64,000 nucleotides of DNA from Maridesulfovibrio sp. (GTDB taxonomy: Bacteria; Desulfobacterota; Desulfovibrionia; Desulfovibrionales; Desulfovibrionaceae): contig NZ_OY781616.1 in NCBI RefSeq assembly GCF_963677005.1, positions 1,495,501 to 1,559,500 on the forward strand. Direction: 5' to 3'. Below are positions 32,629 through 41,103 of the stretch, in pieces; the stretch's first letter is position 1, and the number at the start of each line of letters is the position of its first letter. The notes beneath the pieces were generated by a model. It ran no database searches. It saw nothing but the letters and a program-made list of their open reading frames with translations, and was not told the DNA's origin. The translations under genes were made by a program, and so were the position numbers.

Positions 32629-34176
32629 CTATTCCCATTCAATGGTTGCCGGCGGCTTGGAAGAGATATCCAGCACAACCCTGTTGACTCCCTTGACCTC
32701 ATTGATGATCCGGTTGGACATACGGGCAAGGATATCATTGGGGATACGGCTCCAGTCCGCGGTCATGGCATCGATGCTGTCCACTATGCGCAGTGCAATG
32801 ACATGCTCATAGGTACGATCATCGCCCATGACTCCGACGGTCTTAAGCGGCAGCAGCACTGCAAATCCCTGCCAGACCTTGCGGTACCAGCCGGTTGCAT
32901 GCATTTCGTGCTGTACGATTTTATCTGCCTGACGCAGTATTTCAAGGCGTTCATCGGTAATGTCGCCGAGAACACGGATAGCCAGTCCCGGACCGGGGAA
33001 AGGCTGTCTCCAGATAATGTGTTCCGGAAGGCCCAGTTCATAGGCGACCTTGCGGACCTCATCCTTGAAGAGTTCACGCAGGGGCTCGACCAGGTCGAGG
33101 TCCATATCTTCGGGCAGTCCGCCCACATTGTGGTGGGACTTGATTACTGCGGAAGGGCCCTTGAATGATTCGGACTCGATAACATCGGGATAAAGGGTTC
33201 CCTGAGCAAGAAACTTGACGTCCTTGAGCGCAGTGGCTTCCTCATTGAACACGTCGATAAACGTGTAGCCGATGATCTTGCGTTTTTTCTCGGGATCCTC
33301 AACACCTTTAAGCTTATCAAGGAACAGCCTTGCAGCGTCCACGCATTTCACATTCAGGTCGAAGTGCTCTTCGAGAAATCCGATTACTTCTTCCCTTTCG
33401 TGCATGCGCAGCAGACCGTTATCCACGAAGATGCAGTGCAGTCTTTTTCCGATGGCCTTATGCAGCAGAACTGCAACAACCGTGGAATCGATTCCGCCGG
33501 AAAGTCCGAGAACAACCTTGTTGTCCCCGATCTTCTCACGCATCTCTTCAATGCTTCTTTCCACAAAGGAGGACATGGACCAGTCGGCCTGCAGTCCGGC
33601 TATTTTGAATATGAAGTTGTTTATGATTGTCGTACCGCTCTCGGTGTGAGCAACTTCCGGGTGGAACTGCAGAGCGTACATTTTCTTTTCCTCATTGGCC
33701 ATGGCCGCAAAAGGAATGGACTCGGTAGTACCGCAGACCTTGAAACCTTCGGGAATTGCTTCCACACGGTCTCCGTGACTCATCCACACGGTGAGCTTGT
33801 CGGCATCGTCGATACCGTCCCAGAGAACGCAGTCACCGGATGCACAGAATTCAGCGCGACCGTATTCTCGATCAGAGGAGGAAACAACTCTTCCGCCCAG
33901 ATCATTGGTCATCAGCTGCATACCGTAGCAGATGCCGAGTACGGGTACGCCCATCTCCAGCAGAGAGCGGTCAAGCTGCGGAGAATCCTTTTCCAGTACG
34001 GACGAAGGTCCGCCGGACAGAATCAGCGCTCCGGGCCTGAGTTCCTTGATTTTCCGAGGGTCCGCGTTGCAGGGGTGAATTTCGGAATACACTCCCGCCT
34101 CACGGATTCTGCGGGCAATCAGCTGTGTGAACTGGGACCCGAAATCCAGAATGATTACTTTGTTATCGTGCTGCAT
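32629..34176 (-). CDS. guaA: GMP synthase (glutamine-hydrolysing)
   Basis: Converts XMP to GMP with glutamine as nitrogen donor. It has 515 residues with an N-terminal class I amidotransferase whose nucleophile is the Cys in GICYGMQLM and whose His/Glu are in FHPEVAHTE. The ATP-pyrophosphatase domain has the P-loop [13 protein letters not shown] near 235. The C-terminal dimerisation domain follows ([26 protein letters not shown]). It lies 15 bases after guaB and is terminated by a strong hairpin; the pair is one transcript, probably governed by the leader upstream of guaB. Confidence 0.97.
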
Positions 34177-34191
34177 GACGACTCCTGAAGA

Positions 34192-35649
34192 TTAGTAGGA
34201 ATCAACCCGGTAGTTGGGAGCTTCCTTGGTAATGATTACGTCGTGGACGTGACTTTCCTTGAATCCTGCGGGAGACATGCGGGTAAACTGGGCCTTTTCA
34301 GACATTTCTGCGATGTTGGCACATCCCACATAACCCATGCCGGAACGCAGTCCGCCGATGATCTGGTAGATACTGTCGGAAACGGGTCCCTTGTAGGGAA
34401 CTCTGCCGACAATACCTTCAGGAACCAGCTTGTTGGTGTCCTTCTGGAAATAACGGTCGGAGCTGCCCTTCTTCATGGCGTCAATGGAACCCATGCCGCG
34501 GTAGAGTTTGTAGCTGCGACCCTGATAAAGAACTTTTTCTCCGGGGCTTTCATCGGTTCCGGCAAACATGGAGCCCATCATGACGGTGTTGGCTCCTGCG
34601 ACCAGTGCCTTGACAACATCACCGGAAAATTTGATCCCGCCGTCTCCGATAACGCATACACCGCGTTCCTGGCAGGCTCTGGCGGCTTCCATGATGGCGG
34701 TGACCTGAGGAACGCCGACTCCGGCAACAACACGGGTGGTGCAGATGGAACCGGGGCCGATACCGACCTTAACGGCATTTACACCGGCATCAATCAGAGC
34801 CATTGCGCCGTCATAGGTTGCGATGTTGCCGCCGATGATCTGGGTATCCGGAAAACATGAACGCAGTTCGCGGATGGCGTCCAGAATTCCTTTGGAATGT
34901 CCGTGAGCGGAGTCAAGGGTAAGAAAGTCGACACCGGCCTGGACAAGAGCGGAGCTTCTGTCCATCAGGTCACGTCCGACGCCGATAGCCGCACCCACGC
35001 GAAGCCTGCCCTGAGAATCCTTGGCAGCGTTGGGGTATTTCTTGACCTTGTCGATATCCTTGATGGTGATCAGACCGGTCAGCTTGTTTTCCTCATCAAC
35101 AACCAGCAGTTTTTCGATGCGGTTGGTGTGCAGATGCCTTTTGGCCTCTTCGGAGGAAATCCCTTTCTGCACGGTGATCAGGTTGCGGCTGGTCATCACC
35201 TCGGAAATGGGTGTGTTGCGGTCAGTGATGAAACGAACGTCGCGGTTGGTTATGATGCCGACAAGATGATCTCCCTTTACAACCGGGAAACCGGAAATCT
35301 TGAACTCGGCCATAAGGTCGAGAGCCTTGCCTACGGTGTCATCGGGATGCACAGTGATCGGATCGGTGACCATTCCGGATTCGGACTTCTTGACCCTTTC
35401 AACTTCGCGCACCTGATTGCGGATGCTCATATTCTTGTGGACTACGCCGACGCCGCCGTGGCGGGCCATCTGAATAGCCATCATGGACTCGGTAACGGTA
35501 TCCATGGCGGCACTTACAAGGGGAATTCCGAGGGTGATTTCCTCGGTGAGTTTGGCGGAAACGTCCACCTGATCGGGAAGAACTTCCGAATAGGCGGGCA
35601 AAAGCAGAACATCGTCAAAAGTCAGAGCCTGACCTACTACCTTTTCCAT
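34192..35649 (-). CDS. guaB: IMP dehydrogenase
   Basis: Rate-limiting step of guanine nucleotide synthesis, IMP to XMP with NAD+. It has 485 residues: TIM barrel with a CBS-domain pair inserted (about 95-205), catalytic Cys in [17 protein letters not shown], the flap region GSSDRYFQ and the substrate loop [16 protein letters not shown]-type sequence. The start at 35649 has GAGAGGG seven bases upstream. It heads the guaBA unit and is preceded by an unusual structured leader with an intrinsic terminator. Confidence 0.97.
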
Positions 35650-35682
35650 GTTGCCCTCTCAAAAGGATTTGAAATATTATCT

Positions 35683-35718
35683 AAAAGAAAAGAGAAATCA
35701 TTAGATAGATGATTCCTC
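35683..35718 (-). terminator. Intrinsic terminator inside the guaB leader (candidate attenuator)
   Basis: On the minus strand a 10-bp stem (GAGGAATCAT pairing with ATGATTTCTC, one G-T) with a 7-base loop is followed by TTTTCTTTT. It lies between the guaB promoter and the gene, 34 bases before the ATG, so it must be read through or disrupted for guaB expression. A matching antiterminator partner was not clearly seen. Confidence 0.6.
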
Positions 35719-35820
35719 TCAAGGCTTAAGCCCGGTCTTCCGGCGGTCAACAGGACTCGCTGCCGTCAGCTTCATTCGGGTTCTGGCAGGTACTTCCCTG
35801 CCGGGATTTTCAATCTGTAT
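35719..35820 (-). ncRNA. Structured 5' leader of guaBA, candidate riboswitch of unknown class
   Basis: About 100 bases between the predicted start and the leader terminator. Possible stems are CCCGG with CCGGG as an outer helix, GGCAGG-6-CCTGCC, GCTG-4-CAGC, and GCCGG-4-CCGGGC, then the palindrome GGCTTAAGCC. The arrangement of several stems before an intrinsic terminator is typical of regulated leaders. It does not match any class I know (purine, guanidine, TPP, cobalamin, c-di-GMP). Confidence 0.4.
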
Positions 35821-35827
35821 TGAACAG

Positions 35828-35855
35828 AGTATATACTTTTTCGCGCCGGACTCAA
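35828..35855 (-). promoter_or_regulatory. Sigma-70-type promoter of guaBA
   Basis: Minus-strand TTGAGT (35850-35855), 16 bases, TATACT (35828-35833). It would give a transcript start near 35821 and a leader of about 170 bases before guaB. Confidence 0.6.
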
Positions 35856-35882
35856 GGCCGGAACGGAAAAGATATTTAAAAG

Positions 35883-35911
35883 TGTTCGGCCCCGCATATT
35901 TGCGGGGCCGA
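35883..35911 (-). terminator. Terminator-like hairpin after livF
   Basis: A perfect 10-bp GC-rich stem (TCGGCCCCGC and its complement) with a 6-base loop. On the minus strand it is followed by ACACTTTT, weaker than a standard U-run. It lies 25 bases past the livF stop and upstream of the guaB promoter. Confidence 0.55.
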
Positions 35912-35935
35912 GTTTTGTCAACAATTAACTTTTCG

Positions 35936-36643
35936 TTAGAGTCCGAGGTACGCCTTCTTTATGTCCTCGTTCGCCAGCAGATTCTCGCTGCTGTCGGAGA
36001 GCGTAATCTCCCCGTTTTCCATGACATAACCCCTGTGCGCAGTCTTCAGCGCCAGGTTGGCATTCTGCTCTACAAGAAAAACGGTGGTCCCGCTCTCCTC
36101 ATTAATTTTTTTAATTATTTCAAAAATCTGTCTGATGATCAACGGCGCAAGACCAAGCGAAGGTTCGTCAAGCAGCAGAAGCTTGGGACGAGCCATCAGC
36201 GCTCTTGAAATGGCCAGCATCTGCTGTTCGCCGCCGGAAAGGTTACCACCGGCCTGCCTGCGGCGTTCCCAGAGGATGGGAAACAGTTCGAAGACATGGT
36301 CCATATCTTCCTTTATCCCGGCCTTGTCATCACGCAGGAAAGCGCCCATATCCAGATTTTCGACAATAGTCAGATCGGGAAAGATGAGGCGCCCTTCCGG
36401 GACCTGCGAGATACCCATCTTAACGATATTGTCTGGTTTTTTCCTGTGAATGGGCACGCCGTTGTACAAAACCTCTCCTGACCTTGGAGGCACAACCCCG
36501 CTTATGGTCATGAGAGTTGTTGTTTTCCCGGCTCCGTTGGCACCGATCAGAGTTATGATCTCTCCCTGCTCGACTTCGATATTGATATTGCGCAGGGCCT
36601 GAATGTTTCCGTAGTAGGTATTTACGTTCTTAAGCTTAAGCAT
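35936..36643 (-). CDS. livF: Branched-chain amino acid ABC transporter ATPase LivF
   Basis: A 235-residue ATPase, the second nucleotide-binding subunit of the importer. Walker A GANGAGKTT (33-41), Q-loop, signature LSGGEQQM, Walker B LLLLDEPSLGLAP, switch His replaced at the H-loop position by Gln-like VFLVEQN, as is usual in LivF. It overlaps livG by eight bases and ends the five-gene unit. Substrates are leucine, isoleucine, valine or other amino acids; the family alone does not decide. Confidence 0.94.
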   Translation of the reverse strand: MLKLKNVNTYYGNIQALRNINIEVEQGEIITLIGANGAGKTTTLMTISGVVPPRSGEVLYNGVPIHRKKPDNIVKMGISQVPEGRLIFPDLTIVENLDMGAFLRDDKAGIKEDMDHVFELFPILWERRRQAGGNLSGGEQQMLAISRALMARPKLLLLDEPSLGLAPLIIRQIFEIIKKINEESGTTVFLVEQNANLALKTAHRGYVMENGEITLSDSSENLLANEDIKKAYLGL

Positions 36644-37436
36644 CGAGGTCTTCTCCGAGATATGCCTTGATGACAGCGGGATTCGTGCTGACTTCCTCAG
36701 GTGTACCGTGGGCTATTTCCCGTCCGTATTCCAGCACGAACAGGCGGTCCGATAGGGACATGACCATTTTCATGTCGTGCTCGATAAGCAAAACAGAAAT
36801 TTTGTGTCTTTCCTTGATGGACACGATGAGTTCTTCCAGCTCCAGTGTTTCCTGCGGGTTCATACCGGCTGCAGGCTCATCAAGCAGCAGCAGGAATGGA
36901 TCCGTAGCCAGGGCGCGGGCAATTTCCAGTCGGCGCTGTGCTCCATACGGAAGGTTGCGGGCCAGTTCATCCGCGAACTGTTCCAGTCCCAACTCCTTCA
37001 GCAGTTCGTAGCTTTTCAGGATAGTCTCCTGCTCCTCCCGCCTGGTACCCGGACCGCGCAGTACGGCACCGAGAAAAGTTGCTTTGGTGCGGCAATGACA
37101 ACCTATCATGACATTTTCGATGACAGACATGGAAGGAAAGAGCCTGATATTCTGAAATGTACGGGCCATTCCAAGCTCGGTCACTTTATTCGGCTTACGC
37201 CCGTTGATACGGGTGAATCCTTTTCCACGTGGATCAATATTCACATCCCCGTAGGTGGGAGTATATATACCGGTAATGCAGTTGAAGAAAGTAGTCTTGC
37301 CTGCACCGTTGGGGCCTATAAGGGCCACAATCTCCCCTTCCTTCACATCAAGATCGACATCATCAAGAGCTCGCAGGCCGCCGAAGTCCTTGCAGACGCC
37401 TTTTACTTCCAGAACCGTTCTTTTTTCATTACTCAT
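36636..37436 (-). CDS. livG: Branched-chain amino acid ABC transporter ATPase LivG
   Basis: A 266-residue ATPase. Walker A GPNGAGKTT, signature LPYGAQRRLEIARAL (the LivG-type replacement of LSGGQ), Walker B LLLLDEPAAGMNP, and the switch His in LIEHDMKMVM. I chose the ATG at 37436 with GGGTGA five bases upstream; a GTG at 37445 is an alternative. It overlaps livM and livF by eight bases each, a fully coupled arrangement. Confidence 0.94.
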   Translation of the reverse strand: MSNEKRTVLEVKGVCKDFGGLRALDDVDLDVKEGEIVALIGPNGAGKTTFFNCITGIYTPTYGDVNIDPRGKGFTRINGRKPNKVTELGMARTFQNIRLFPSMSVIENVMIGCHCRTKATFLGAVLRGPGTRREEQETILKSYELLKELGLEQFADELARNLPYGAQRRLEIARALATDPFLLLLDEPAAGMNPQETLELEELIVSIKERHKISVLLIEHDMKMVMSLSDRLFVLEYGREIAHGTPEEVSTNPAVIKAYLGEDLDA

Positions 37437-40835: not shown

Positions 40836-41103
40836 CATAACACTCCTTGACTGCGTTGATTTTAGGCTTTTCGCCAGAATTCCATATTCCTCTACGTCAC
40901 AGCTCGTGTCCCGAACATAAGGCACAAGATGAAACGTGAAATACCCTATCATGCGAAAGCTGAGGTTGAAAACCTCTGCTGCGGCTCAATCTTCCCAAAC
41001 TCTCTTCCTGTCCTGATCCGGCAAGACGGACAAAATTCAGAGAATCACAGAATAACCGACTAAGCGCTTTCTGAATATCCGCAATTCGGCAAACTTGTCA
41101 ATG

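Follow-up and report, generated by a model that had tools for sequence, protein, structure and literature searches.

Organization of the guaB Leader

The window analyzed here is a stretch of 64,000 nucleotides from Maridesulfovibrio sp. (contig NZ_OY781616.1, positions 1,495,501 to 1,559,500), which carries on its minus strand the genes livK-livH-livM-livG-livF-guaB-guaA, in that order. The product of livF was recognized by a Pfam ABC transporter domain, and the remaining liv names were assigned from the sequences. The same order on one strand, as in the window, was found in 15 of 15 relatives, a set to which the genome G010 does not belong. GuaB carries out the committed step of GTP synthesis, and its control sets the supply of GTP and, with that, growth. 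The intergenic region between livF and guaB is 286 bases long. The features of the locus, in coordinates of the window, are as follows:

35912-35886 (approximate), minus: GC-rich hairpin between livF and guaB
35855-35828, minus: promoter-like TTGAGT-16-TATACT (consensus scan and recurrence in the genus)
35785-35802, minus: P1 hairpin GGCAGG-GAAGTA-CCTGCC (fold and clade-A pairs; nearly invariant in clade A)
35731-35780, minus: P2 hairpin region, variable (weak covariation, some pairs broken)
35709-35720, minus: terminator 5' arm GAGAGGAATCAT, unchanged in 16 of the 17 genus genomes
35690-35701, minus: terminator 3' arm ATGATTTCTCTT; among those 16, the sole change is A/G at the fourth base
35683-35689, minus: U tract TTCTTTT
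35654-35660, minus: guaB ribosome-binding site GAGAGGG (by eye)
34192-35649, minus: guaB, IMP dehydrogenase with CBS domain (two stretches), 485 aa (Pfam)
32629-34176, minus: guaA, GMP synthase (Pfam GMP synthase domains), directly downstream of guaB

The terminator-like hairpin (35720-35690) has 12 pairs, three of them G-C, and a 7-nt loop, and is followed by TTCTTTT down to 35683, which lies 33 nt before the guaB ATG at 35649. In the 286-nt intergenic region, the longest stem with a U tract behind it has 12 pairs, a length reached in 0 of 1000 dinucleotide shuffles, in which the maximum was 10. A preliminary description of this DNA had proposed a terminator with a 10-bp stem in front of guaB; the hairpin and U tract are thus clear, but the stem is 12 pairs long. 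A looser terminator scan was not significant, with four found and 3.6 expected.

The promoter-like site at 35855-35828 has 9 of 12 consensus matches. A scan of positions 34000-37000 on both strands yielded six such sites where 1.6 were expected, a modest figure, and because of this number the scan alone is weak evidence. However, the promoter stretch ending in AAAAAGTATATA recurs at the same place in 14 of 16 aligned genomes (it is absent from L011 and L012), and a similar stretch lies upstream of guaB in the 17th genome (G002), giving 15 of 17 in total. The sigma-70-like promoter that had been proposed at 35828-35855 therefore holds up as a promoter-like sequence kept in most of the genus, from which a transcription start near 35821 is predicted. 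The layout of an attenuator, with a promoter upstream and a terminator between promoter and gene, can be read in the sequence, with the promoter stretch lacking in 2 of 17 genomes.

Between the promoter-like site and the terminator hairpin lies a structured stretch of about 100 nt, the leader body. The whole leader had a minimum free energy (MFE) z of -2.39, with 5 of 200 shuffles as low; for the leader minus the terminator, z was -1.39, with 22 of 200 shuffles as low. The terminator is therefore clear and, judged by energy alone, the remaining fold is unremarkable.

Some other features of the region were observed. After livF (35886-35921, minus), TTGACAAAA is followed by a palindrome, CTCGGCCCCGCA..TGCGGGGCCGA; TTGACAAAA is invariant in the 16 aligned genomes and the adjoining palindrome decays in some. 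This stretch may serve as a second promoter or may terminate transcription on the opposite strand. Around the -35 box (35831-35875, minus) an inverted repeat, ACTTTTT...AAAAAGT, was seen by eye in several relatives, and is imperfect in the window; it is a possible operator. L011 and L012 lack the promoter stretch upstream of guaB but still have the terminator and a P1-like hairpin.

The Element Occurs before guaB throughout One Genus

A DNA search covered 98 genomes. Of the 17 that belong to the genus, the window's own among them, 16 had the leader at E ≤ 6.6e-10, and none of the 81 genomes from outside the genus matched below 5e-4. The exact hairpin pattern was present as one copy in each of 16 of the 17, and a reversed control pattern gave 0. 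The remaining genome, G002, shows a similar promoter and, in place of the exact pattern, the diverged hairpin GGAGAAATCAT..ATGGTTTCTCTG. A covariance model running from the hairpin to the start codon found all 17 genus genomes, each at guaB and at E ≤ 4.8e-13; this model was built from 13 rows, and matches to those rows hold by construction. There was no exact second copy in the genus, where the next-best model match had an E value of only 0.024.

Beyond the genus, 271 other genomes of the family gave no model match better than E = 0.001, and nothing better than this was found outside the genus when stricter filters were applied to two overlapping sets, 288 genomes of the family and 297 of the class. 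A pattern scan of genome contigs returned two loci; it missed most known members of the genus and so has no bearing on absence elsewhere. Six weak model matches at places other than guaB (G247, G244, G214, G009, G002, and G266; E 0.001 to 0.05) were rejected, their stems being different from that of the guaB terminator; three of them (L104, L105, and L107) lie directly before an ORF other than guaB. We also inspected other guaB leaders, i.e., G002 and 59 stretches taken from the matches listed, out of 257 non-genus genomes of the family with a guaB match. A terminator scan of these 60 upstream stretches passed G002 and one weak case, the 7-pair hairpin of L082 at a distance of 169 nt. By eye, and uncounted, the 59 stretches from other genera contained no comparable leader, with which the scan agrees except for L082; the end of livF was close to guaB in many of them (by eye). 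Sequence comparison thus establishes the anatomy of the element and its occurrence before guaB throughout one genus, whose members are sulfate reducers.

At the gathering score, Rfam gave 0 matches in the window and in the loci of 16 relatives. A permissive scan of 35600-35950 (E up to 10) gave seven matches, none of them a riboswitch and all below the gathering score (best E 0.0042); these (sRNA, miRNA, antisense, and one cis-regulatory family, ClpQY_promoter) were taken as chance. As had been noted previously, the leader matches no known riboswitch class: neither the purine riboswitch nor other Rfam riboswitches gave a covariance-model match at the thresholds used. Our searches of the open-licence literature turned up no description of this leader. 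A partial parallel comes from Staphylococcus aureus, a member of a different phylum. There, a guanine (purine) riboswitch controls xpt-pbuX-guaB-guaA (PMC2858708). The two cases would be alike in that an upstream leader RNA controls guaB and guaA, as is reported for S. aureus (PMC2858708) and as we propose here. However, the present leader has no purine-riboswitch match at these thresholds and no aptamer conserved between clades.

The Terminator, Not the Leader Body, Is Conserved

The 16 aligned genomes fall into two clades, A (L001-L010) and B (L011-L016). The terminator arms with the U tract (33 nt) were 99.4% identical in clade A, 98.4% in clade B, and 98.9% across the two clades. At fourfold sites of guaB (nine clade-A and six clade-B genes, without G010), the corresponding identities were 55%, 63%, and 43%. 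For the leader body they were 79%, 69%, and 52%, when shuffled A-B pairs gave 47% (sd 3%). The conserved part is therefore the terminator and not the stretch before it. Because its 79% identity within clade A compares with 55% at fourfold sites, the body is constrained within that clade; between clades, however, most of it has been rewritten, unlike the terminator. An invariant terminator behind a body barely above the shuffled level is the reverse of a riboswitch.

The only control measured was the terminator upstream of livK, for which the best terminator-like hairpin was picked in each of 15 of these genomes. Its arms came in 14 distinct sequences, and their identity was 61% in clade A, 79% in clade B, and 55% across the two (the hairpin in L113 was probably a wrong pick). 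It has some conservation, several clade-A members having the stem GGGAATCC/GGGTTCCC in common, yet it is far from invariant. Like the guaB terminator it consists of a hairpin and a U tract, but it drifts, with 14 distinct arm pairs in 15 genomes, whereas the guaB terminator is nearly invariant. The sequence conservation of the guaB terminator exceeds what pairing requires.

All 12 terminator pairs hold in the 13 distinct rows of the alignment. Three pairs show one-sided changes, and a two-sided change was seen once; the source of these is G002 or the single A/G site, in a sample (17 genomes, one genus, two main clades) that offers few independent changes. Twelve of the 13 rows keep a G-U wobble in the stem, the other having A-U there, and the loop varies from 5 to 7 nt among 16 genomes. 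The varying loop length and the wobble fit RNA pairing and speak against a DNA operator with fixed spacing. In the clade-A body, a two-sided change was found in 1 of 17 predicted pairs, and for seven pairs between one and three sequences had a gap or broke the pair. In clade B, hairpins of other sequence (e.g., TGGTC/GACCA and CTGG/CCAG) occur about where P1 sits (by eye, uncounted), which suggests that the P1 position may keep a hairpin across clades. The preliminary description would have been refuted by stems that vary without compensatory changes in relatives, and on this point the picture is mixed: the terminator stem hardly varies and its changes keep pairing, but the body stems show little covariation. 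Its suggestion of a metabolite aptamer in the leader is not supported, since the body is hardly conserved between clades and a two-sided change is seen in so few of its pairs.

Antiterminator Pairing in the Leaders

For each of 17 leaders, pairing of the terminator 5' arm with upstream sequence was compared with that in 200 shuffles of the body (counts uncorrected). In the window leader 94 of 200 shuffles reached the observed pairing, and antiterminator pairing in the window species was therefore no better than chance; none of the ten clade-A leaders had an antiterminator above chance in this test. In the near-identical L013 and L014, the terminator 5' arm finds a partner at the 5' end of the leader, and 0 of 200 shuffles were as good; the figures for L015 and L016 were 4 and 45 of 200. 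With 38 to 194 of 200 shuffles as good in the remaining leaders, 14 of 17 were not above chance overall. By duplex energy alone, L013, L014, and L015 were not unusual (54, 49, and 136 of 200), and G002 stood out (10 of 200). An antiterminator at the 5' end of the leader is thus possible in the sub-lineage of L013, L014, and L015, which is not the window's clade, and the case is slightly weakened because the duplex energies disagree. The preliminary description went too far in stating that a terminator at this place requires control by antitermination, as partial read-through would also supply guaB mRNA, and transcription from further upstream might do so.

Interpretation of the guaB Element

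Our leading explanation, held tentatively and with slightly less than even confidence, is that the element is a genus-specific transcription attenuator of guaB-guaA in which the terminator itself is recognized and read-through is set by a trans factor. RNA polymerase would start at the promoter at 35855-35828 and make a leader of about 140 nt; a share would stop at the hairpin and the U tract ending at 35683, and the remainder would read into guaB and guaA. Read-through would most likely be set by a factor recognizing the invariant hairpin or its CU-rich 3' strand. This factor might be a protein, or polymerase with elongation factors, rather than a metabolite bound to the leader body. We infer termination at the hairpin, regulation of the read-through, and the involvement of a trans factor in it; the terminator is taken as the recognized element because it is invariant (98.9% between clades) where the body, the fourfold sites, and the livK control stand at 52%, 43%, and 55%. 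Against this explanation count the absence of the promoter stretch from L011 and L012, the constraint on the body in clade A, and the pairing in L013-L015.

PyrR, LicT/SacY, and HutP are known from protein-dependent attenuators, in which read-through is set by a protein binding RNA near or in the terminator. The guaB element resembles these systems in having a terminator before the gene, but differs in that the window species has no alternative pairing above chance. In other organisms, the nucleic-acid targets of IMPDH are CT-rich. In an autogenous form of the attenuator, which we regard as a long shot, GuaB would bind the CU-rich strand AUUUCUCUUUUCUUUU via its CBS domains, tying read-through to the GTP/ATP state that GuaB senses. 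IMPDH of other organisms has been reported to be a nucleic-acid-binding protein and to work as a transcription factor (studies cited in PMC9462843). If a trans factor does act on the terminator, the element would be an attenuator whose terminator is recognized and whose other parts can be exchanged, which turns the usual design of a riboswitch around, and searches for RNA leaders built on conserved sensors would miss such cases.

The terminator might instead be a fixed attenuator, which a constant share of polymerase passes without regulation, control being exerted at the promoter. The ten clade-A leaders without an antiterminator above chance and the promoter-like stretch kept in 15 of 17 genomes are in keeping with this idea, but it predicts compensatory drift, such as is seen in the livK-upstream terminator, and the guaB terminator does not drift; we consider it unlikely, if still a serious competitor. 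We give rather less credence to a cis-acting RNA switch (a riboswitch or similar) in which a fast-evolving sensor in the leader body controls the terminator. It would account for the constraint on the body within clade A and for the 5'-end strand that pairs with the terminator 5' arm above shuffles in L013, L014, and L015. However, the A-B similarity of the body is near the shuffled level; a model of the clade-A body, searched against 36 genomes, matched only the ten clade-A guaB leaders (E ≤ 1.3e-22), leaving the clade-B leaders unmatched and nothing else below 0.0028; and there is no Rfam riboswitch and a two-sided change in only 1 of 17 body pairs. Nor does a new riboswitch class find a sensor domain conserved across these relatives, the body being at 52% between clades against 47% when shuffled.

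A small RNA gene is a shade less probable again. Here a free RNA of about 140 nt would be made, and most guaB transcription would come from the liv operon or from leakage. Both the size and the layout (promoter, two hairpins, terminator) fit, as does the conserved run of genes from livK to guaA on one strand in 15 of 15 relatives (without G010). The body of a small RNA usually retains a seed, but the body is the variable part here, and the element was found solely before guaB.

Ribosome-dependent attenuation, in which the hairpin would be opened by a ribosome translating either a leader ORF or the six-codon ATGATTTCTCTTTTCTTTTAG (MISLFF) in the 3' arm and U tract, is very improbable: the latter frame (35681-35701, minus, reading ATG ATT TCT CTT TTC TTT TAG) is present with I or V at codon 2 in 16 genomes and runs on in G002 as MVSLFFYLSF (by eye), but it is indistinguishable from conservation of the hairpin itself and its SD-like GAGAGG lies 11-13 nt away, inside the stem, while ORFs in the leader body differ in start, end, and frame and 3 of 17 leaders have no listed ORF of at least 8 codons (counting ORFs that stop within the stretch). 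A leader peptide in the body was rejected, there being no conserved reading frame across the switch region and 1-nt indels in the body.

A Hairpin in the livK Leader

In the leader of livK (41001-41040, minus), a hairpin loop, UCUUGCCGGA, was identical in 15 aligned sequences, i.e., the window and 14 relatives (L109-L122), which had been picked by an exact 9-mer; a 16th stretch (L123, from G002) lacks the 9-mer. This hairpin had no Rfam match at the gathering score. Its stems differ (GUCC/GGAC, GUUC/GAAC, and UUCC/GGGA), and the leader outside the hairpin differs between clades. It may be a regulatory RNA in its own right, belonging to the operon for branched-chain amino acid transport.
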